Shown piece by piece: positions 1-39,591 of a DNA stretch of 44,940 nt; the stretch's first letter is position 1, and every line of letters begins with the position of its first letter. Made by a program: the position numbers and the translations under genes. Under the pieces are notes generated by a model, which was given only the letters and a program-made list of their open reading frames with translations, had not been told where the DNA came from and did no database searches. Origin of the DNA: Trichodesmium erythraeum GBRTRLIN201 (GTDB lineage: Bacteria; Cyanobacteriota; Cyanobacteriia; Cyanobacteriales; Microcoleaceae); contig JAGGDU010000066.1 in NCBI GenBank assembly GCA_018457135.1, positions 1 to 44,940 of the forward strand, in the 5' to 3' direction.

Positions 1-325
1 CAAAGCCGAAAATATTGAAGCCGCCATTGCTGCATACCAACAAGCTTTGCTGGTGCGCACCCAAACAGACTTCCCCATGGACTGGGCAACAACTCAAAAT
101 AATCTCGGCGCTGCCTACATTTACAGAATAAGGGGAGACAAAGCCGAAAATATTGAAGCTGCCATTGCTGCATACCAACAAGCTTTGCTGGTGTACACCC
201 AAACTGACTTCCCCATGGACTGGGCAATGACTCAAAATAATCTCGGCGCTGCCTACATTTACAGAATAAGGGGAGAAAAAGCCGAAAATATTGAAGTCGC
301 CATTGCTGCATTCCAACAAGCTTTG
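1..325 (+). repeat. 138-bp in-frame tandem repeat encoding TPR units
   Basis: A 138-bp unit (46 codons) recurs with starts at 1, 139 and 277; the third copy is cut short after about 50 bp of close match. Copies one and two differ at about six positions by eye (about 96 percent identical), so the TPR array expanded or was homogenised recently. More copies probably lie upstream of the window. Confidence 0.9.
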
Positions 326-2119
326 CTGGTGCGTACCCTGGAAGCAAACCCCATCGACCATCTACAAACCACCAACAACTTAGGCTACCTATATTTCGAC
401 AACCAAAACTGGCAACTCGCAGCCGACAACTATGAAAAAGCCATAGCTGCAGTGGAACTCAGCCGCAGTTGGGCAACTACCGACAAACGCCGCCAAGAGA
501 TTATAGCAGAAGCAATATCAGTTTATCAAAATCTGGTGCAAACATACATCAATTTAGAGCAATGGGATCAAGCCTTCAAAACAGCCGAACGCAGCAAAAC
601 TCGCAACCTAGTCGAACTTCTAGCCAAGCGCGACATCTATCCTAAAGGCGATGTTCCCCAAGAGATCATCGCCGAGCTAGATCGACTACGAAGCACCATT
701 CCATCACTAGAAAGGCGGTTACAAGGAGTTCTAGAGCGACTATCTGGAAATACAAGCCCACCAGAAGAACCCCAGCGGCGATCGCTCATGGCATCACAGC
801 AACAGCTACAACAAGAATTGCAGCTATCAAGGCAACAGCTAGAGGAGACACTTGAACGGATCAAGCCTATAGACTCCAGCTTCAGCCTGACTCAGAGGGT
901 AGAGCCGATTTCTTGGAGTGATACCCAAAGTCGAATTGATGAAAGCACTACCATAATTGAGTGGTATATTACGAAGGATAAAATTATCACCTTTATTCTG
1001 ACCGCCAACAGTCTGCTAGTCAAACAAACTGACAAAAAAACGCTTGAAGCCTTAGTAAATTGGGGAGATGATTATTTGACTGCATATTTGCAAGAAGACA
1101 AAAAACAGTGGCAAGACCATTTAGCCTCCAACCTCAAAAGGTTGGCCGAGATTCTTGATATCGATGGCCTCCTCACCCAGGTCGGCGAGATTTTTTACCA
1201 GCAAGGAAAGAAATGCGACCGCCTCATCCTCATTCCCCATCGGTTCCTACACCTATTTCCCCTCCATGCCATGCCTTTAGCCAATGGAGATTTACTCATG
1301 GAGCGCTTTCCTGGAAGTCTCAGCTATGCTCCCAGCCTCCAACTGCTGCAACTGAGTCAAACCTGGAACCGTTCCTCACTCAAACATTTTTTCAGTGTCA
1401 CGAACCCTACAGAAGACCTCAGTTTTACCGAGCCAGAAGTTGCCACTATTCGCGCTGACTTTTATCCTAACGATGACGTCTTAGAACGACAACAAGCTAC
1501 CAAAACTGCCCTCACCCAGGAACGTCTGGCTGAAACCAACGTGGCTCATTTTGCCTGTCGCGGTTATTTTAATTTTAAATCGCCTATTGATTCTGCTCTG
1601 CTGTTGGCAGGGAGTACAACTCCAACTCCTCAGGAAACTGCAGATGGAAATGGGATTAATTTGGAAAAATGCCTAACTTTAGGGGATATTTTCGCCTTAG
1701 ACTTGCGTCAATGTCGCCTCACCAGCCTCTCCGCCTGCGAAACAGGCCTGAGCGATTTTAAATCCCTTGGGGATGAATATATTGGTCTGCCCAGCGGTTT
1801 TCTCTATGCAGGGAGTCCAAGTGTGGTTAGTAGTCTCTGGACTGTTAATGACCTCTCCACAGCCCTTTTGATGATTCAGTTGTATAAAAATTTGCTAAAT
1901 TCCCAGGAGCAGACTAATGTAGCGATCGCTCTTAACCAAGCTCAACTTTGGCTGCGAGACCTAACCAAAAAAGAGTTGGAAAAATGGATTTTAGAAAATA
2001 AAATCCCCCTGAGTCCAACCCTGGAAATGAATCTAGCCTGTCGTTTGCATCAAATGTCAGATAAGTATCAGCCCTTTGAATCACCATTCTACTGGGCAGG
2101 GTTTTGCGCGATCGGCTAA
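2..2119 (+). CDS. TPR-CHAT protease-like protein, 5' partial
   Basis: The frame is open from the first bases, so the true start lies upstream; the first in-window ATG at 47 is internal. The N-terminal part is made of 46-residue TPR units (AENIEAAIAAYQQALLV... NNLGAAY), then a degenerate TPR region and a coiled coil (about residues 200-280 from the ATG at 47). A CHAT domain (caspase/separase-like Cys peptidase fold) fills the C-terminal half, with HRFLHLFPLHAMP, a SACETG motif carrying the Cys (codon 1736-1738) and the family tail PFESPFYWAGF. The usual HFACHG motif reads HFACRG here, so the catalytic His position (codon 1559-1561) is Arg; the protein may be a pseudo-peptidase or use another His. 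TPRs in such proteins sense partners. It heads a co-directional cluster with a caspase and EAD proteins. Family assignment is firm, activity doubtful. Confidence 0.93.
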   Translation, partial: KAENIEAAIAAYQQALLVRTQTDFPMDWATTQNNLGAAYIYRIRGDKAENIEAAIAAYQQALLVYTQTDFPMDWAMTQNNLGAAYIYRIRGEKAENIEVAIAAFQQALLVRTLEANPIDHLQTTNNLGYLYFDNQNWQLAADNYEKAIAAVELSRSWATTDKRRQEIIAEAISVYQNLVQTYINLEQWDQAFKTAERSKTRNLVELLAKRDIYPKGDVPQEIIAELDRLRSTIPSLERRLQGVLERLSGNTSPPEEPQRRSLMASQQQLQQELQLSRQQLEETLERIKPIDSSFSLTQRVEPISWSDTQSRIDESTTIIEWYITKDKIITFILTANSLLVKQTDKKTLEALVNWGDDYLTAYLQEDKKQWQDHLASNLKRLAEILDIDGLLTQVGEIFYQQGKKCDRLILIPHRFLHLFPLHAMPLANGDLLMERFPGSLSYAPSLQLLQLSQTWNRSSLKHFFSVTNPTEDLSFTEPEVATIRADFYPNDDVLERQQATKTALTQERLAETNVAHFACRGYFNFKSPIDSALLLAGSTTPTPQETADGNGINLEKCLTLGDIFALDLRQCRLTSLSACETGLSDFKSLGDEYIGLPSGFLYAGSPSVVSSLWTVNDLSTALLMIQLYKNLLNSQEQTNVAIALNQAQLWLRDLTKKELEKWILENKIPLSPTLEMNLACRLHQMSDKYQPFESPFYWAGFCAIG

Positions 2120-2303
2120 TAATGAAAAAACTTCAATCACACATCTCCAATAAGAAAAAATCTAGTCAATTATACCACAGAAATCATCAATTACTTCCCT
2201 ACTCCCTAGGGAGGTTAGATGTAAACTTCCTACCTACCTCCTCTTTTCTGGAAAATTATAATACAATAAATACTTAAGATTACCAGTCCAAACTGCCCAA
2301 ATA

Positions 2304-3806
2304 ATGAAAGAAATACCCCAGACCATAGGACTGCATAGTCCCAGTCTTGTACTCTATGCTTTCCATCTGCGCAACAGTATCAACCAGGGATTAAAACCTA
2401 CTTCAAAAGCACCCCGGTTGTGGGAACAGTTAGTAGATTTGGGAAATAAGCTGAATATTCCAGAACTGCAAAATCTGCAACAACAACTAATTAGTTATCA
2501 AAATAACCAGTATTTTCCCGCAGCAGAAGATAACCTAGAAAGTGAATATGAAATTTTATTACCTAATCAACAAACCAAATTAGACTTTGAAATAACCTCC
2601 AAGTCTGGTGATAGGCAACTTCAAGGATTACTCTGTCCATACCGAGTACACGATACTTATGCAATAGATTTCACCCTACATTCTCAAAGCACTTTTTTCC
2701 TATCTCAACTAGCTCAACTTAATCCCCAATACCTACTACTCCCCTCACAAATTCAAGCTTCTCTAGGGCAAACCCTATTACTTTTTGGACAACCAAGTGA
2801 ATTACAGGAAAACCATCAAGATTTTGCAGATGCTTGTGTTGCTAAATTACTGCCAACAACAAATAGAACTGAGCTAATAAATACAGGTCATTTACTGGGA
2901 AACCCGATTTTTGAATATGAAAGCCGACATAAAGACCCTAGTCAGCGACTTCATATTCTAGTTTGGTTGAAATGCCAAAATCTGGATCCAGAGGAAAAGA
3001 AAATGGATAAGGCATCCGAGTTAATACTTCTTCTTTTGTGGTGTCGTCATAAGATACAGTATATCTATCATCAATCTCGCGGGTGCGAGGGTCAGCTCAA
3101 ACAACTGTATAGCAAAATAGAACAGCACAAGAAAAGCTTCCGTCAAATTTCCCGATCACCAAATAGGCAAGAACAACTTAGACCATTACTTGTAGAATTA
3201 CAGGATATAGATATTAAGTATGCTGACTACTTAGAGGAATTGGAAGCCCACAAAAATACCATTGCTACTAATGAAAAAAATTATAGGATGAAACTAGAAA
3301 AGCTAGGGGAGCTACCCGATACTGACTTAAGTTTGTGGGAAGATTTTTTAAATTACATCCGCAAAAAATTGCAAAGTCAAATTCAAGCAGATCTGGAATT
3401 CCTGAGTCCTAAGCGTACTCACCTGCAAAATCTAAAAGCCGCAATAAAGGAAAACCTTACTCAGACACCTTCTGGCAACAAGACCCGAGGAATTACTGAC
3501 GAACTTCGTCATCAACTGTATAAAGCTCTGTTAGAGTGTGACCAATTTGAAACTAATCAAGAACTACAAAGTTTTTTCAAAGGTCAGGCTCGGCTCTCTC
3601 CTTGGGCCAATAGCTTACCAGAAGGTAAAAATACGGCCCAACGAGTCAGACTAGTGATTGGCTTTTTAGTAAATAAGTATCGTAGCGATACCAATGAGAA
3701 TGTACTGGTTATTTTGGTAAACTCCCTTAGTAGTACAATTGATCCAGCAGATACTCGGAATCAAACTTTATCTGAATTAGCAGAAAAGCTTAAGTATTGT
3801 TTATAA
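2304..3806 (+). CDS. Coiled-coil conflict-system protein with C-terminal effector-associated domain
   Basis: 500 residues. Residues 1-225 form an alpha/beta region I cannot assign firmly; its opening (LYAFHLRNSINQG... LWEQLVDLGNKLNIPEL) recalls the CATRA-N type module found in caspase/TPR-associated conflict systems, which is inference. Residues 260-390 are strongly helical and charged, probably coiled coil. Residues 395-497 match the N-terminal domain of the caspase at 4733-5914: both have L..C.QFE...LQS, a PW....LP block, RV.LVI..L.NKY.SDT.EN.LV and a trailing helix. This is an effector-associated domain (EAD), a death-like adaptor thought to bring sensor and effector together by like-with-like contacts. 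No nuclease or peptidase motif is visible, so the protein is probably the scaffold or sensor. It lies 184 bp after the CHAT gene on the same strand. Confidence 0.8.
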   Translation: MKEIPQTIGLHSPSLVLYAFHLRNSINQGLKPTSKAPRLWEQLVDLGNKLNIPELQNLQQQLISYQNNQYFPAAEDNLESEYEILLPNQQTKLDFEITSKSGDRQLQGLLCPYRVHDTYAIDFTLHSQSTFFLSQLAQLNPQYLLLPSQIQASLGQTLLLFGQPSELQENHQDFADACVAKLLPTTNRTELINTGHLLGNPIFEYESRHKDPSQRLHILVWLKCQNLDPEEKKMDKASELILLLLWCRHKIQYIYHQSRGCEGQLKQLYSKIEQHKKSFRQISRSPNRQEQLRPLLVELQDIDIKYADYLEELEAHKNTIATNEKNYRMKLEKLGELPDTDLSLWEDFLNYIRKKLQSQIQADLEFLSPKRTHLQNLKAAIKENLTQTPSGNKTRGITDELRHQLYKALLECDQFETNQELQSFFKGQARLSPWANSLPEGKNTAQRVRLVIGFLVNKYRSDTNENVLVILVNSLSSTIDPADTRNQTLSELAEKLKYCL

Positions 3807-3921
3807 AAAAATATAGACACAGCAGATTTCGGGCGAATGATGTACAGGGTAAATGCTAAAAATCATATATTACCAGTATATTGACGGTTTGGGGGTACCT
3901 GATAAATCTGAAATATGCTGT

Positions 3922-3990
3922 AAAATGTCAGAGAACGCTCGGCCCTTTGAATCGCCCTTTTACTGAGTTGTATTTTGTACTATTAGTCAA
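3922..3990 (+). pseudogene. Relic of a CHAT protease C-terminus
   Basis: In the frame of codon 3925, the peptide KMSENARPFESPFY, a TGA stop, then VVFCTIS parallels the end of the intact CHAT protein (QMSDKYQPFESPFYWAGFCAIG). The conserved Trp codon TGG has become TGA. Only the extreme 3' tail survives, suggesting a second CHAT gene was deleted here or that the tail was duplicated. No upstream CHAT sequence was recognised between 3807 and 3921. Confidence 0.75.
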
Positions 3991-4001
3991 TAGGAGGAAA
4001 A

Positions 4002-4397
4002 ATGTCATTATCTAAATACGAAGAAAATATAATAAAGTTTGTCGACCTAATAAAAAAACAACCTAATTTATTCAAAGAAAAAGAACGCACTAATTTGCGG
4101 CAGTTGCTTCAAAAGCTTCCAGATAATGTTGAAAAAATCTCTGATGCCATAGCCCTCTGGTGTAATGAACATCCGCAAATTCGAGATGCTTTTCTTAATA
4201 TCCGCATTAATAGCATTCCAGATCCTCGAGCTGCAAATGGTCGTGCTACTCCTCTCACAGGAAAGGAAACCAAGGAGATAATCGAAAACTTGGTTATTGA
4301 GAGCAGCGAGTCAAAAGAATCAGAACTATCAAAAAAAGGGAAAACCCTGATCAGTAGAGGCATTGATATTATTGGTAGTTTTTTTTCAACAAAATAA
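4002..4397 (+). CDS. Small helical protein of the CHAT/caspase cluster
   Basis: 131 residues behind a strong ribosome site, AGGAGG at 3992-3997, four bases before the ATG. The N-terminal half (residues 5-65) is predicted helical with amphipathic repeats (FVDLIKKQPNLF, LRQLLQKLPDNV, AIALWCNEHPQI). The rest is polar, with a short hydrophobic C-terminal helix (SRGIDIIGSFF). There is no signal peptide and no catalytic motif. I do not recognise the family. Its position between the EAD scaffold and the EAD-caspase, and its size, recall the small helical proteins that accompany CATRA-type conflict systems; this is context only. It could be an adaptor, inhibitor or membrane-tail effector. Confidence 0.7.
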   Translation: MSLSKYEENIIKFVDLIKKQPNLFKEKERTNLRQLLQKLPDNVEKISDAIALWCNEHPQIRDAFLNIRINSIPDPRAANGRATPLTGKETKEIIENLVIESSESKESELSKKGKTLISRGIDIIGSFFSTK

Positions 4398-4436
4398 TAT
4401 AGCAAATAGGCCGTCAGCAACTCATAGTAGTTGTAG

Positions 4437-4462
4437 GTTGGGTTGAAGCCACAAAACCCAAC
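4437..4462. repeat. Palindromic hairpin repeat
   Basis: Perfect 8-bp arms GTTGGGTT and AACCCAAC around a 10-base loop. The sequence around it (GTAGGTTGGGTTGAAG) looks like the short palindromes dispersed in many cyanobacterial genomes. There is no T-run after it, so it is probably not a terminator. It is the only structure I see in the 4398-4732 gap. Confidence 0.6.
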
Positions 4463-4732
4463 ATAGATTAATTCGGCTTGTAGTTCGACTTTAGTCCCTC
4501 TAAAGATATTAAGACTAAACCCTTATTTTTTTTAATATTCATATAAGTTTATACTCAGTTAAAATAATCACTACTAGTGTTAAATTATCTCAGAATTTGA
4601 TAAAATATACAACGTAAAAAAAAATGTTTCGCGTATCGCTCAATTAACTTGCTGGTTGAAATTCATCTCAGCGTTAAATTGTCCGATAATAGCGGCAGTC
4701 CTATAGGCAAAATTCCTTGATAGACTTATAAT

Positions 4733-5914
4733 ATGGCTGGCATTCCCCCTGAACTATATCAAAAATTGCGTCAATTTCTGTTAGACTGTGAACAATTTGA
4801 GAGCGATCGCGCCCTTCAGTCTATTGTTTCCACTTATCAACCACTAAGACCTTGGCGTTTTTTACCCCAAGCCAACAGTATGGCCAGTAGAGTAAACTTA
4901 GTAATTAGCTATTTACATAACAAATATCACAGTGACACCAAAGAAAATGCTCTTGTCTTACTGTTACGTCTCTTAAAAGATTTAATCGAAGAAGAAGATC
5001 AACGTCACCAACAACTAGTCAATCTAATTATAGAACTGGAAAATGCTTTTGCAGATAACTCAACTCTGGATAACCTTAAACCAGAAACCAAGACAGAAAC
5101 TACAATTCGAGGCACAAAAAAAAGAAAGCTCGAAGAAGAAAAACGTCAACCCATAAAAAATCGTTGGGCTTTTTTGGTAGGAGTCAACCGCTATAATGAT
5201 CCAGGAGTTCACAAGTTAAAATTCTGTGTAAAAGATGTGCAAAAATTAGAAAAGAAACTCAAAGAACTTGGATACACAGTCATGTGTTTACATGATGATC
5301 TTGAATCTGATAGCCGCCGCTTCCCCATCCACAACAATATAGAAGCTGAATTAATTAACCTATGCAATATGGTCGATGTAGATGACCTATTGCTGGTGTA
5401 TTTTGCTTGTCACGGTAAACTTGGGCGCGATGAACAACCTATGCTCATAGTCAGGGATACCCGTTTACCAACCATCGAAAAAACAGGTTTGTCTCTAGCC
5501 GACATAAAAAAATCCATGCATTCTAGCAAAGCAAGACGTTTAGTACTGACATTGGATGCTTGTCATATGGGAGTCGAAACCGGACGAGGAATTGACGAGC
5601 CCCAATTCATTCAAAATGCTTATGAATTAGCTGAAGGTTTTGCCTTAATTGCCGCGAGTACAGCACAGCAAAAAGCCCTAGAGTCACCAGAGAAAAATTC
5701 TGGAGTCTTCACCCACTACCTAATAGAAGGACTCAGCGGTGATGCAGACCGGGAGAAAAAGGGTTTCGTGACTGTAGACGATCTTAAGACTTATGTGCTC
5801 CATAGTCTTCGTCGTTGGAGTATCGAGAATGATGAAGAAATTCAAGAACCAACTGCCAAGACAGAAGGACTAGGGGATATGATAGTTGCAGATTATCGCT
5901 ATAGCCATGATTAA
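4733..5914 (+). CDS. EAD-caspase (metacaspase/orthocaspase-type peptidase)
   Basis: 393 residues in two parts. Residues 5-105 are an effector-associated domain nearly parallel to the C-terminal domain of the 2304-3806 product. A charged linker (110-140) leads to a caspase p20-like domain from 143: RWAFLVGVNRYNDPGVHKL, then the catalytic His in LVYFACHGKL (His227) and the catalytic Cys in LVLTLDACHMG (Cys277), then an Ala-Ser-Thr strand (FALIAASTAQQKA) and a GVFTHYLIEGL helix. Both catalytic residues are intact, so it is probably active, cleaving after basic residues if it behaves like other orthocaspases. It most likely acts as the effector recruited through EAD-EAD contact in a suicide-type response. 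The start at ATG 4733 begins the EAD directly and fits well. Confidence 0.93.
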   Translation: MAGIPPELYQKLRQFLLDCEQFESDRALQSIVSTYQPLRPWRFLPQANSMASRVNLVISYLHNKYHSDTKENALVLLLRLLKDLIEEEDQRHQQLVNLIIELENAFADNSTLDNLKPETKTETTIRGTKKRKLEEEKRQPIKNRWAFLVGVNRYNDPGVHKLKFCVKDVQKLEKKLKELGYTVMCLHDDLESDSRRFPIHNNIEAELINLCNMVDVDDLLLVYFACHGKLGRDEQPMLIVRDTRLPTIEKTGLSLADIKKSMHSSKARRLVLTLDACHMGVETGRGIDEPQFIQNAYELAEGFALIAASTAQQKALESPEKNSGVFTHYLIEGLSGDADREKKGFVTVDDLKTYVLHSLRRWSIENDEEIQEPTAKTEGLGDMIVADYRYSHD

Positions 5915-6154
5915 ACAAAGATAATTATCAAAAACTAAACTTACAGCCCTTTTCAAATTGATAAACAACATCGCCATAACTAAAACTTTGTACGGACCTT
6001 GCATCACAAAAATGCGTTTCATATCCCATAGCGAAACCTCCATAAATGCAACCTCCCTACCATGATTTACCGTGCAGGAAAACTGGGGTATCATAACAGA
6101 TAATAATTATACTTTAACAAAATGTTAGGTAATCAAAGAATCAGGAGAACTAGT

Positions 6155-7615
6155 ATGATGCGCGGTCAAAAAACTATGATGGTACTATTGAGTCTAGCTC
6201 TAAACTTGGTATTGGTAGCACCTCCTGTGAAAGCTGAACCAAAAGTTACCATAACCCCATCCAATTTAACCGTAGTAGGAACTAAATGTCCAGTTTTTTT
6301 TTACTGTCCTGTCCTGAAGCGCCGTCTAGTTTTACAAACTAATCAGGCCATCGCAAACTTACAAATACTCAGCCTAGATTTGGATCGAACCGATGGAACC
6401 ACCGTTTTACAAGGTAGCGCGATTAATCCAATTTTGTCCACAACCTCAGTGGAACCAAATCAACCACTGACTATCCCAGTTGAATTCAACTTAAACGATG
6501 CCAAAAGTGGTGAATTTAGTGGTGTTTTACTAGCCATCCATTCTGATGGACAACTGGTTATACCTATAATTGTACGAGTAAAAGATCATTGGCTGGGACC
6601 AATATTCCTCTTGCTATTAGGCGTTATGGTAAGTATTGGCATGTCTGCCTACCGTACTGATGGCAGAAACCGTGATGAAATTGTGGTGCTAGTTAGCCGC
6701 ATTCGCACTCAGATGAAAGCTGACCCAGAACTAGTAAAATCATTTCAGGTAAAAATCAATGGATATCTAATTGATGTAGACACCGATTTAACAAACAAGC
6801 GATGGGATGAGGCAAAGCAAGCTGTAGCAAAAGCTCAAACAACTTGGGATAAATGGCGAAAAAGTAGAGAAGACTGGTTAGCTTTATCCGAATTTGAGTC
6901 TTCCTTTCTAGATCTAGATAATCTCACCACTGATGCTCCCTATGTACAAACAGTAGGTAGCTACTTAGAGAATATTAAGCGACAAACAGCTGATAAAGAA
7001 AATCCCGAACAGTTGAGGAAAGAGTTAAATGATTTGCGGCAACAACTGGTTCGTTACCTGGGAGGTGAAGCTAAACTAGAGAGATTCGATAATCTTAGAA
7101 ATGAGTTAACTGGGTCAGCACAACAAGAGCAAGCACTTAGAGATATATCTCAATACTTGCAGCAGGAATTAAATAATCTTTCTCCAACTGAGCTAGAAGC
7201 TTTCCAAAGATGGGAGCAGGAGATTGATAATGAACTCAAACAACTAGACCAAGCCATTAAACAACAACAAATTTCCAACAATGAAGCTCAAAGTAACCTC
7301 AGCATAACTTCCAGGGGTGTTAGTAGCACCTATCCTGCCCGCCTTCCTAACCCAGTTCCTGATGTTCAACCTCTACAACTTAATCCTGTAGGGTCTGCCC
7401 GCAATCTATTTTTGTTTCAATTATTAAGTTATACAATTGCAATTTTCCTCCTGGCGGGTGCAGGCTTTAGACAACTTTATGTCACTCAACCCACCTTTGG
7501 AGCAAATCTTTGGACAGATTATTTTGCTCTGCTAGCTTGGGGTTTTGGAGCTGAGGCTACTCGCGATGCCGTTACCAAAACTATCCGCGAGTGGAAATTG
7601 CCCGGACTCAAATGA
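6155..7615 (+). CDS. Secreted/membrane coiled-coil protein with Ig-like domain
   Basis: ATG 6155 is preferred over the in-frame ATG at 6122 because AGGAG (6143-6147) sits seven bases ahead and the signal peptide then starts cleanly (MMRGQKTMMVLLSLALNL, cleavage near VKA/EP). From the new start: an extracytoplasmic beta-rich domain of about 115 residues (roughly 30-145, with a close Cys pair, TKCPVFFYC), a transmembrane helix (WLGPIFLLLLGVMVSIGMSAY, about 146-166), a long coiled-coil region (about 175-375), and a C-terminal hydrophobic helix (LLSYTIAIFLLAGAGF) followed by another hydrophobic stretch. This topology places the coiled coil in the cytoplasm. I do not recognise a named family. Being last in the CHAT/caspase cluster, it could be a membrane anchor or membrane-perturbing effector. 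Confidence 0.82.
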   Translation: MMRGQKTMMVLLSLALNLVLVAPPVKAEPKVTITPSNLTVVGTKCPVFFYCPVLKRRLVLQTNQAIANLQILSLDLDRTDGTTVLQGSAINPILSTTSVEPNQPLTIPVEFNLNDAKSGEFSGVLLAIHSDGQLVIPIIVRVKDHWLGPIFLLLLGVMVSIGMSAYRTDGRNRDEIVVLVSRIRTQMKADPELVKSFQVKINGYLIDVDTDLTNKRWDEAKQAVAKAQTTWDKWRKSREDWLALSEFESSFLDLDNLTTDAPYVQTVGSYLENIKRQTADKENPEQLRKELNDLRQQLVRYLGGEAKLERFDNLRNELTGSAQQEQALRDISQYLQQELNNLSPTELEAFQRWEQEIDNELKQLDQAIKQQQISNNEAQSNLSITSRGVSSTYPARLPNPVPDVQPLQLNPVGSARNLFLFQLLSYTIAIFLLAGAGFRQLYVTQPTFGANLWTDYFALLAWGFGAEATRDAVTKTIREWKLPGLK

Positions 7616-7626
7616 AACAAAGCCAA

Positions 7627-8070
7627 GTTAGGTTTTAGGTTTTAGGTTTTAGGTTTAAAAATTAACAAACAGAAAACAAATATCAATGTACTTATGGGAG
7701 CGATCGCTAATTTTAGGTTTTAAGTTTTAGGTTTTAGGTTTTAGGTTTAAACATTAACAAACAGAAAACAAATATCAATGTACTTATGGGAGCGATCGCT
7801 AATTTTAGGTTTGAAGTTTTAGGTTTTAGGTTTTAGGTTTAAAAATTAACAAACAGAAAACAAATATCAATGTACTTATGGGAGCGATCGCTAATTTTAG
7901 GTTTTAAGTTTTAGGTTTTAGGTTTTAGGTTTAAACATTAACAAACAGAAAACAAATATCAATGTACTTATGGGAGCGATCGCTAATTTTAGGTTTTAAG
8001 TTTTAGGTTTTAGGTTTTAGGTTTAAACATTAACAAACAGAAAACAAATATTAATGTACTTATGGGAGCG
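7627..8070. repeat. Five-copy 92-bp tandem repeat with TTTTAGG microrepeats and HIP1
   Basis: The landmark GGGAGCGATCGCT recurs at a strict 92-bp spacing (CGATCGCT at 7701, 7793, 7885 and 7977, and the altered GGGAGCGATAAA at about 8065). Each unit holds a run of three to four TTTTAGG heptamers, a conserved core (ATTAACAAACAG... TGTACTTATGGG) and one HIP1 octamer, lost in the last copy. The copies are almost identical, so the array is young. No reading frame runs through it. Confidence 0.92.
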
Positions 8071-8635
8071 ATAAAATCATCCCTGCCAGGAATTTAGGCA
8101 GAACCTCCAGTAGAGGCAAATAGTATTTACCCTCCTCAGATAGCATTTGCCCTCTACAGATAGTGTATTATCTACAAGTTTGTGTAAGTCCTAAAAATCT
8201 TACTTTGTCATTTTTTAATTACAAAAGCAGGGACGTTGCATGCAAGGTTTTTACTAAGGAACAGACAATTTATAGAAGAGGAAGTCGGATATATTTACCC
8301 CTTAATTTTTATGCCATGATCAGCCCACAATAATTAAAATAGGTGACCTTGAAAACCGAAAATCAGACACTTTACAGCACTTTTCAGATTTATCAACCAC
8401 ATAGTCATAAGTAAAACCAAACAAAAGCGAATAGCCAGAAAGCCCCTACTCTAATGACAACCGCCCTATTATTGGGTAAATTGCACAAGCAGCGATCGCA
8501 GAGGCTTACCTTAGCAATATAGCAAAAGCGATATCCAGCATTACTACAAATTTTTTTCCCCCGTCGAAACAAGCTCATGAAAAATTTTAAGTGTCTGGAA
8601 AATATCCACTGCAAATTGAAGTCTTTTTCTGATTT
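8071..8635. other. Intergenic spacer with a decayed palindrome
   Basis: No convincing gene. At 8228-8255 GGGACGTTGCATGCAAG is a worn copy of the widespread cyanobacterial palindrome centred on GACGTTGCATGCAACGTC. A second weak inverted pair (AGAGGCAAAT near 8112 and ATTTGCCCTCT near 8146) could fold. A 69-codon minus-strand frame (8405-8614) has no family look. Confidence 0.5.
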
Positions 8636-38103: not shown

Positions 38104-39591
38104 CTATTGATTAGCTAAGCCATCAATAATTTGTGTCAAACTATCAATTTTATTTTTAGTTGCATTCATTTCATTAATATATTTCTGTAAATTTGTAGCA
38201 ATAACACTTAAATGAGAATTATTAAGATTAGCTTGGGTGCTTATACTTTGATTTATTTGATCTCCTAAATATTTAATCCCCTCACCAATACCATCTGTAG
38301 AATTATTGAAGGTATCTACTAACATTTTGATTTGAATTTGTACTTCCTCTAGATTATCCGCTTTAGATACTACTCTTCTTTGTAAAGTATCCAAAGTACC
38401 GACAGCTAAATGGAAACTTTGTGATGCTTCCTGTAGTTGCCTAATCACCTCAGAAAAAGATTTTTGATTACTTTGATGAGATTCTAATATTCTTAATGAA
38501 GTTTGATTATTATTACTAATTTGTTCTCCAAACCTAGCTAGTCTTTTACTATATCCTTGTAGTTCAATTACTACTATTTCAATTGCTTGAACAGCAGCAG
38601 CTAGAGTTGAAGTTGACTGAGAAAAATTACTTTGAATATTAGCTAATTCCGTTGTAGAATTAGCTAAACTTTGGGGAAACTGACTATGTTCAAATATTTG
38701 TGCGACCTCTAGAAATTTATCGGAAGCTATCTGAAAATCCTGAGAACTGTTAGCAATAGTAGCAGCAGCTTCTCCTAATCTTACAAAAGTCTGTTCTGCT
38801 AATTTATTTGCAGTAGCATTAGCATTATAAATTTCTTGAATTTTATCTTGTAGAGCTGACTCTACTCCTACTCTAACTGTTTGACCAAATGTTGTTAAAA
38901 ATTCTTCAAAAGAATAGGCAATAGTTTTTACTACTTTGTCAAGCTGAGTTTGACCTTGGATAGTTTGTAAGTAAATATTATCTAAATAATCTTCTAGTAA
39001 ACTGATTAGTCTAGTTTTTGCCAAACTAGCATTAAAAATTAAATTAATTAATGTAACTAGAGCACTAAATAATATTGCTACTAAACTCGTAACGAAAGCA
39101 ATTCCCATACCTTTTAAAGGTACTTCTAATTCCTTCAGTAAACTACTAACATCCGTAGCATTAGTATCACTAATTGTTTGGCTCAGAGATGTTAAATTAA
39201 TGGTAATACCAGCAAAAGTACCTAATAATCCAAAAGATACAAGTAGATTCGGTAAAATTCTACAAAAATATTCAACTTGCCTTAAAGAAACTAATCCTAA
39301 TAATCGCTGTCTACTATAAACTTGGTCTATTAATGCTCCTGTATTAACTTGCTCTAGTTTACTACTAGCATCAGCAAATCTCTCCTCTAAATACTTGATA
39401 AATTTAGGCTTATTATTTACTAACTGCTGACTAATAAGTCTCTTAACTTTATCTTCCTGATTTGCTAAGTCAAAATAAAGTACCATCCTGAGTAAGATAG
39501 CTACAAAAGATGGTATGATTACTAAAATAATTATTAGAGGTATTAAATAAGATGGTATTAGTGGCATAGTAGAATTTTTTATGGTAAGCAT
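38104..39591 (-). CDS. ZorA/MotA/TolQ/ExbB-like proton-channel protein with long coiled-coil tail
   Basis: 495 residues. Transmembrane helices are at about 13-37, 112-135 and 160-187; the last two carry the MotA/TolQ/ExbB patterns PNLLVSFGLLGTFAGITINL and GMGIAFVTSLVAILFSALVT. Residues 190-495 form a long helical, Gln/Ser/Asn-rich tail (heptad-like: ATIANSSQDFQIASDKFLE), as in ZorA, where the tail projects into the cytoplasm. An internal ATG at 39567 is an alternative start. Downstream on the same strand comes the ZorB-like gene. In Zorya defence this pair senses phage entry and signals to ZorC/D, ZorE or other effectors; none is visible within several kb, so defence is unproven. Confidence 0.85.
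   Translation of the reverse strand: MLTIKNSTMPLIPSYLIPLIIILVIIPSFVAILLRMVLYFDLANQEDKVKRLISQQLVNNKPKFIKYLEERFADASSKLEQVNTGALIDQVYSRQRLLGLVSLRQVEYFCRILPNLLVSFGLLGTFAGITINLTSLSQTISDTNATDVSSLLKELEVPLKGMGIAFVTSLVAILFSALVTLINLIFNASLAKTRLISLLEDYLDNIYLQTIQGQTQLDKVVKTIAYSFEEFLTTFGQTVRVGVESALQDKIQEIYNANATANKLAEQTFVRLGEAAATIANSSQDFQIASDKFLEVAQIFEHSQFPQSLANSTTELANIQSNFSQSTSTLAAAVQAIEIVVIELQGYSKRLARFGEQISNNNQTSLRILESHQSNQKSFSEVIRQLQEASQSFHLAVGTLDTLQRRVVSKADNLEEVQIQIKMLVDTFNNSTDGIGEGIKYLGDQINQSISTQANLNNSHLSVIATNLQKYINEMNATKNKIDSLTQIIDGLANQ

Follow-up and report, generated by a model that had tools for sequence, protein, structure and literature searches.

What might connect a caspase, a protease-like TPR-CHAT protein and a membrane protein that are encoded side by side in a cyanobacterium? 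Cell death in Trichodesmium and other cyanobacteria has long been associated with caspase-like proteases, whose triggers and targets are, to our knowledge, an open question. The locus considered here lies at the start of contig C66 of Trichodesmium erythraeum GBRTRLIN201 (genome of 7.2 Mb in 241 contigs), and the window analysed is that entire contig of 44,940 bases. Five co-directional open reading frames (ORFs) on the plus strand span positions 2–7615 and encode the TPR-CHAT protein, a scaffold-like protein (SCAF), a small protein (SMALL), the caspase and the membrane protein (MEMB). An earlier, sequence-only reading had proposed this gene set, with an EAD common to scaffold and caspase and with a membrane partner; all the ORFs are present, Pfam confirms the TPR, CHAT, shared adaptor and caspase domains, the adaptor is bDLD1 (EAD3), a bacterial Death-like domain, and MEMB has a signal-like segment and hydrophobic segments. 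We give about an even chance to these five genes being the effector half of a conflict or cell-suicide locus that is wired by bDLD1 to a MoxR-vWA-iSTAND core.

The bDLD1 adaptor and the core genes

The adaptor bDLD1 (PF20689) has four matches in the genome, two on C66 and two on C103, the sole other contig with a match. Within the window it is found at the N-terminus of the caspase (E 6.3e-10), ahead of a Peptidase_C14 domain (E 1.3e-16), and at residues 396–477 of SCAF (E 5.8e-8), where the domain as a whole occupies about 395–497. The minus strand of C103 encodes a bDLD1-phosphoesterase-periplasmic binding protein, a bDLD1-iSTAND protein (PF19995, E 2.2e-18), a MoxR-like AAA+ protein (AAA_5, E 2.2e-12), a vWA protein (CoxE, E 3.7e-5, just short of the Pfam cut-off) and the beginning of a TPR protein. 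The same EAD is carried by a core component (iSTAND, on C103) and by effectors (SCAF and caspase, in the window). The 22 bDLD1 copies compared separate into iSTAND, STAND and effector types, the last being carried by SCAF, caspase, phosphorylase, CHAT and phosphoesterase proteins, and the SCAF copy is closest to that of the C103 phosphoesterase (56%, support 98/97, with a long-branch warning). EAD copies of one locus had been expected to be mutually closest, which was seen only in part, as the bDLD1 copies group by partner.

The phosphoesterase protein of C103 (981 amino acids (aa); L095:5241-8186, minus strand) deserves a separate remark. Its bDLD1 falls just under the Pfam cut-off and is accompanied by a calcineurin-like phosphoesterase and a periplasmic ligand-binding domain, with an apparent transmembrane (TM) segment between domains as judged by eye, making it an unusual membrane effector with a Death-like domain.

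Because the window is a whole contig, the TPR-CHAT gene is truncated at its 5' end and the genes upstream of it lie outside. C66 begins within 138-bp TPR repeats, and the TPR protein of C103, of which the N-terminal half is present, runs off its contig in repeats of the same kind. We infer that the two contigs join and that the window is continuous with the MoxR-vWA-iSTAND core. Among the candidate contigs for the N-terminal half (C17, C96, C105, C132 and C103), only C103 has the N-terminal domain (NTD) found in relatives, a vWA gene or bDLD1, at most the first 8 kb having been read of C17, C96, C105 and C132. The same repeat also ends contigs C17, C50, C58, C96, C105, C132, C155 and C188, indicating that the assembly often breaks within TPR-CHAT genes here.

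Genomes of relatives supply the gene order. On a single contig of G380 the order is bDLD1-iSTAND, MoxR, vWA, an NTD-TPR-CHAT-SMALL protein of 1468 aa, bDLD1-caspase and MEMB, the last two being 58% and 55% identical to their counterparts in the window. In G326 and G231, iSTAND-MoxR-vWA genes have SCAF-bDLD1, SMALL and TPR-CHAT genes around them, with no caspase or MEMB in the stretch read. Together with bDLD1 on C103 and in the window, these gene orders place the set with the MoxR-vWA-iSTAND ternary systems, and a reading of the genes as an NTP-independent system is probably wrong. The NTD recurs on large proteins elsewhere (L084, L085, L086, L095, L107, L108, L109, L112, L149, L150, L159 and L160), and vWA or MoxR genes share the stretch in most of these loci, none being seen in L108 and L109.

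Table 1. The five plus-strand genes at the start of the window, with their coordinates and main features
Gene	Coordinates	Strand	Description
TPR-CHAT	2..2119	+	705 aa, 5' end open; CHAT Cys kept (SACETG), HG-motif His replaced by Arg (HFACRG)
SCAF-bDLD1	2304..3806	+	500 aa; N-terminal alpha/beta domain, three long helices (weakly CorA-like stalk), C-terminal bDLD1
SMALL	4002..4397	+	131 aa, no Pfam family; recurrent neighbour of SCAF and TPR-CHAT
bDLD1-caspase	4733..5914	+	393 aa; intact His/Cys dyad (FACHG / LDACH)
MEMB	6122..7615	+	497 aa; signal-like segment, beta-sandwich, TM, helical region; recurrent caspase-gene neighbour

Recurring neighbours of the scaffold, small protein, caspase and membrane protein in relatives indicate a gene set beyond chance; the neighbourhood comparison called for by the sequence-only reading came out mostly in its favour. 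The intergenic gaps are 184–335 bp and a single operon is plausible. In G391, of the same genus, the caspase domain is 94% identical to that of the window, and the MEMB gene of a Trichodesmium metagenome-assembled genome (MAG) is likewise 94% identical; a dN/dS of 0.30 for the caspase and 0.22 for MEMB, from the one sequence pair of window and MAG_R02, makes both genes look to be under purifying selection. What appeared to be a half-deleted bDLD1 in the caspase of Trichodesmium MAG_R02 (G391), and a natural loss, was dropped as a candidate, being a gap of 100 N. PADLOC gave a match to its generic caspase model (E 9e-15), the remaining matches being weak (E 0.0037 or worse). Directly downstream of the MEMB gene, positions 7628–8072 hold 4.8 near-identical 92-bp tandem copies with TTTTAGG-type sub-repeats, and a stretch resembling them lies upstream of the caspase in L104 (717–783). 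Far from the five genes, a 495-aa ORF on the minus strand (38104–39591) has no Pfam match at E 1e-5.

The TPR-CHAT protein, the scaffold and the small protein

The first gene of the set encodes TPRs and a CHAT domain (E 4.6e-46), the CHAT motif reading HFACRG in the window and CHG in most relatives. We take the histidine of this HG motif to be the catalytic CHAT histidine; with it missing, the window lacks the His/Cys dyad of an active CHAT protease (HFACRG / SACETG), and judged by these residues its CHAT is probably not an active protease. The TPR-CHAT protein then more probably has a structural or sensing role, and proteolysis would be left to the bDLD1-caspase, in which the Peptidase C14 dyad is found (CHG and DACH). 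Across 38 CHATs compared, the histidine is absent in three of the five that lie beside a bDLD1-caspase (window, G380 and Planktothrix) and in one of the other 33, at a bDLD1-iSTAND locus of G231; it is nearly always present in the cyanobacterial triads of which the scaffold gene is part.

Those triads consist of TPR-CHAT, SMALL and a membrane protein, and SCAF is of this third kind. In the window its bDLD1 occupies the place of the C-terminal hydrophobic segments of its relatives, and the five SCAF members with bDLD1 have no such segment, unlike the other members. By Kyte-Doolittle scan, 44 of the 49 SCAF rows without bDLD1 and of at least 380 aa have a segment over threshold, some rows repeating proteins; the five rows without one (L061, L062, L063, L066 and L069) are shorter reads of longer versions (L013, L014, L020, L023 and L015) that have it. 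The predicted fold of SCAF is weakly CorA-like, a relation to CorA is not supported by sequence, and among PDB sequences only matches of coiled-coil type were found (best E 0.036).

SMALL has no Pfam family at E up to 1. It is fused to the C-terminus of CHAT in G380, and it occurs together with bDLD1-caspase and MEMB in six genomes (the window, G380, L105, L109, L148 and L152). The SMALL domain is also fused to a DUF2887 protein (L071:1429-2556, minus strand, in G039) and found on three ORFs of 236–405 aa (L073, L074 and L075). The SMALL and SCAF alignments comprise 30 of 37 (A1) and 32 of 37 (A2) hits, fusions and some cut ORFs being excluded, and no more than four candidates per genome were scored when the phylum was searched with SCAF and MEMB.

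The triad has what we take to be the same kinds of parts as CATRA systems, in which a caspase/CHAT-TPR protein occurs with CATRA and a small CATASP, and the sequence-only reading had raised CATRA membership. This found no support: neither SCAF nor SMALL matches CATRA or CATASP (hmmscan, E up to 1). CATRA-C (PF20270) is over the cut-off in none of 386 genomes of the phylum, with weaker matches in three, and none of 14 controls matched; it has no match in the genome studied here. CATASP (PF20271) was silent in this genome and in all controls, and so is not evidence, and it is absent from the families listed (25 of 47) for the 30 SMALL relatives. CATRA-N could have shown only in the general Pfam scans of the window proteins and SCAF relatives, no search dedicated to that family having been made. 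A very distant or unrelated cyanobacterial counterpart of CATRA would account for the shared part list (protease-TPR, mid-size protein, small helical protein) and for the one SCAF relative of 32 that matches CATRA-C at E 0.014; with the profile results against it, we regard this explanation as quite improbable. Membership was dropped on these profile results, and a distant relation of SMALL to CATASP may exist beyond the level of sequence. The CATRA paper is that of Burroughs and Aravind (2020), as cited in PMC8195603.

MEMB and its pairing with caspase genes

No Pfam family is over the cut-off in MEMB. By the Kyte-Doolittle scale there is an N-terminal signal-like segment at 18–36, with hydrophobic segments over threshold at 158–176 and 429–447. 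The layout comprises a PapD/MSP-like beta-sandwich at about 40–156, the TM segment 158–176, a long helical region, which should face the cytoplasm, and a C-terminal helix pair, of which 429–447 is clearly hydrophobic and the second helix is below threshold. Matches to PDB sequences are of coiled-coil type only (best E 0.0016), and the caspase has none at E 0.01.

A profile scan, which detects only sequences bearing one of two peptide patterns, found the MEMB family at 60 loci in Cyanobacteria, Chloroflexota and one Desulfobacterales MAG. Adjacency was counted at 58 of these, which include mutual close copies, with ORFs of at least 100 aa as neighbours; L148 and L161 were dropped, having no MEMB ORF of that length. 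The nearest neighbour has a caspase domain at 18 of the 58 loci, and caspases make up 18 of 107 nearest ORFs, 6 of 326 at distance 2–5 and 1 of 169 further out. Two of the adjacent caspases (L149 and L158) are fragments and stand outside the caspase tree. The caspase hidden Markov model was seeded with four caspases, all of them beside MEMB, so that distant caspases elsewhere could be under-counted. Ten chosen MEMB neighbours without a caspase hit gave, in Pfam, one CHAT, one TIR-AAA and no C14.

The arrangement differs between groups. The bDLD1-caspase lies upstream of MEMB on the same strand in Trichodesmium, Planktothrix, Plectonema, Calothrix and G380, as well as in Rhizonema, which is outside the count, and apart from the window and G380 it adjoins MEMB in five loci (L104, whose caspase contains an assembly gap, L105, L109, L148, where MEMB is only a fragment, and L152). 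A caspase-EAD10 is encoded on the strand opposite MEMB in the Nostoc group, G167 and G060, while the caspase is upstream of MEMB in Chloroploca and downstream in Leptolyngbyaceae. A tree of 39 caspases puts 20 MEMB neighbours, all with His and Cys kept, in two separate groups (supports 91/93 and 98/95, with long-branch warnings), and the neighbour label needs 2 changes, where shuffles need 13.2. Of the 60 MEMB sequences in a second tree, 20 have a caspase neighbour, and this label takes 6 changes, compared with 16.9 after shuffling (the MEMB alignment, A4, holding 46 of 55 candidates plus four earlier rows). Both trees indicate that such pairs arose, or were retained and lost, repeatedly and with different adaptors. 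In Plectonema, Calothrix and Planktothrix, bDLD1-caspase and MEMB have a bDLD1-STAND protein next to them, and the stretch read contains no iSTAND, MoxR or vWA; from these neighbourhoods, the caspase-MEMB output appears to be plugged into differing sensors.

Proposed mechanism and comparison with known systems

In the explanation that we prefer, the bDLD1-iSTAND and NTD-TPR-CHAT proteins would sense an invader or damage under a MoxR/vWA switch. The pseudo-CHAT TPR protein, SMALL and SCAF-bDLD1 may form an oligomeric platform, in which SCAF would be a stalk protein whose membrane hairpin was exchanged for a Death-like domain, and this platform could cluster the bDLD1-caspase and activate it by proximity. 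The caspase might then cleave MEMB or be held by it, and this would alter membrane integrity or signalling and lead to cell death or growth arrest.

Several observations weigh against this explanation, and two rivals draw on them. The HG-motif histidine is kept in the CHATs of Plectonema L105 and Calothrix L152, both bDLD1-caspase loci, and since these CHATs are intact, inactivity is a tendency and not general. The join of C103 and C66 is unproven, as these repeats are found at the ends of at least eight further contigs. Among six other genomes of the genus, a close copy of the caspase was found in G391 only, full-length SCAF-bDLD1 in none, and a bDLD1 match in G390 only, the domain of G391 being broken by the N gap. 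Such patchiness, the gaps between the genes and the similarity to Trichodesmium MAG_R02 upstream of the caspase, which stops just past the end of the SMALL gene, would suit a signalling island whose genes are loosely grouped, share no function and owe their order on the contig partly to chance; the co-occurrence of SMALL, bDLD1-caspase and MEMB in six genomes and the SMALL-CHAT fusion of G380 argue against an island, which we consider improbable.

As for MEMB, a caspase is not its nearest neighbour in 40 of the 58 loci, and in several it adjoins housekeeping genes, so that it must also function without a caspase, and it could be a sensor instead of an effector. The main rival explanation makes MEMB the input: its periplasmic beta-sandwich would be a sensor, its cytoplasmic helices would hold the bDLD1-caspase until envelope stress, and the released caspase would act on soluble targets. 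The topology (signal-like segment, PapD/MSP-like domain outside, long helices inside) and the 40 loci fit this account, and a membrane component has been proposed as caspase sensor in the EACC1 system (PMC7159879, cited here and below from part of its text). Candidate sensors and a switch (iSTAND, TPR, MoxR-vWA) are, however, already present in G380 and probably here, and we hold MEMB as input to be unlikely.

Starting again from MEMB as effector, a broader joint reading is tentative and on the whole doubtful. MEMB, with its PapD/MSP-like domain on the outside, its helical region in the cytoplasm and its membrane helices at the C-terminus, might serve bacterial caspases in general as executor or gate at the membrane and be a functional counterpart of gasdermin; its pairings with caspases of the bDLD1 and EAD10 types in Cyanobacteria and Chloroflexota would have arisen independently. 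In addition, SCAF in the window might be an apoptosome-like caspase platform, a CorA-like membrane stalk that traded its TM hairpin for a Death-like domain. Were MEMB a substrate, bacterial caspases would have a gasdermin-like output other than gasdermin, and the SCAF family, through this exchange, would give a clear example of how a membrane protein becomes a signalling scaffold. The locus offers a testable circuit, with a Death-like adaptor switch, a defined platform and a membrane protein whose recurrence beside caspases suggests a route by which the caspase could affect the cell membrane.

A full-text literature search found no paper on the bDLD1-caspase/MEMB pair or the SCAF/SMALL/TPR-CHAT triad, an absence that is weakly supported because the families are nameless and because supplementary neighbourhood tables and the CATRA paper were outside its scope. 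As far as that search goes, three points go beyond anything found in print: the adjacency of MEMB to two caspase groups with different adaptors, the triad membership of SCAF with its replacement of the hydrophobic segment by bDLD1, and the weakly CorA-like fold predicted for SCAF. For SCAF the CorA/ZntB family is among the nearest known systems, and CorA-like CRISPR effectors are presumably a further one.

The TPR-CHAT protein shares its architecture with Csx29, which has the substrate Csx30 in type III-E CRISPR and whose activity requires H615 and C658 (PMC10028731, in the part consulted). The model NF041237 matches the window protein far under its cut-off (E 1.5e-17, 63.7 of 300 bits). As with Csx30, a second protein follows CHAT in the cyanobacterial triads and could be a substrate; unlike Csx29, the window CHAT lacks the histidine, and no Cas gene is present among the ORFs scanned. 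The two-gene EACC1-caspase system (PMC7159879) also has a membrane protein beside its caspase, and the window caspase matches NF047832 ("caspase, EACC1-associated type") at E 5e-31, with 107.8 of 140 bits and so under the cut-off. EACC1 itself is described in the same source as mainly actinobacterial, with one TM helix and short extensions, whereas MEMB, at about 500 aa, combines an Ig-like domain with two clear TM segments and a long helical region; the Pfam and NCBIfam results for the window proteins contain no EACC1 component, no dedicated EACC1 model having been searched.

Among the closest known systems are the MoxR-vWA-iSTAND ternary conflict systems with bDLD1/EAD3 (Kaur et al. 2020, PMC7159879); the ternary core, bDLD1 and the EAD principle are already published. 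The main text of that paper does not contain the term CHAT, and no description of MEMB-like or SCAF-like families was found in the part of it covered, which excludes the supplementary tables. As in the ternary systems, bDLD1-iSTAND stands beside MoxR and a CoxE-like vWA on C103 and in G380, G326 and G231, and further copies of bDLD1 are carried by effectors, following the EAD principle of the same source; what differs is the effector side in the window, with its TPR-pseudoCHAT protein, SCAF-bDLD1 stalk, small protein and caspase-MEMB pair.

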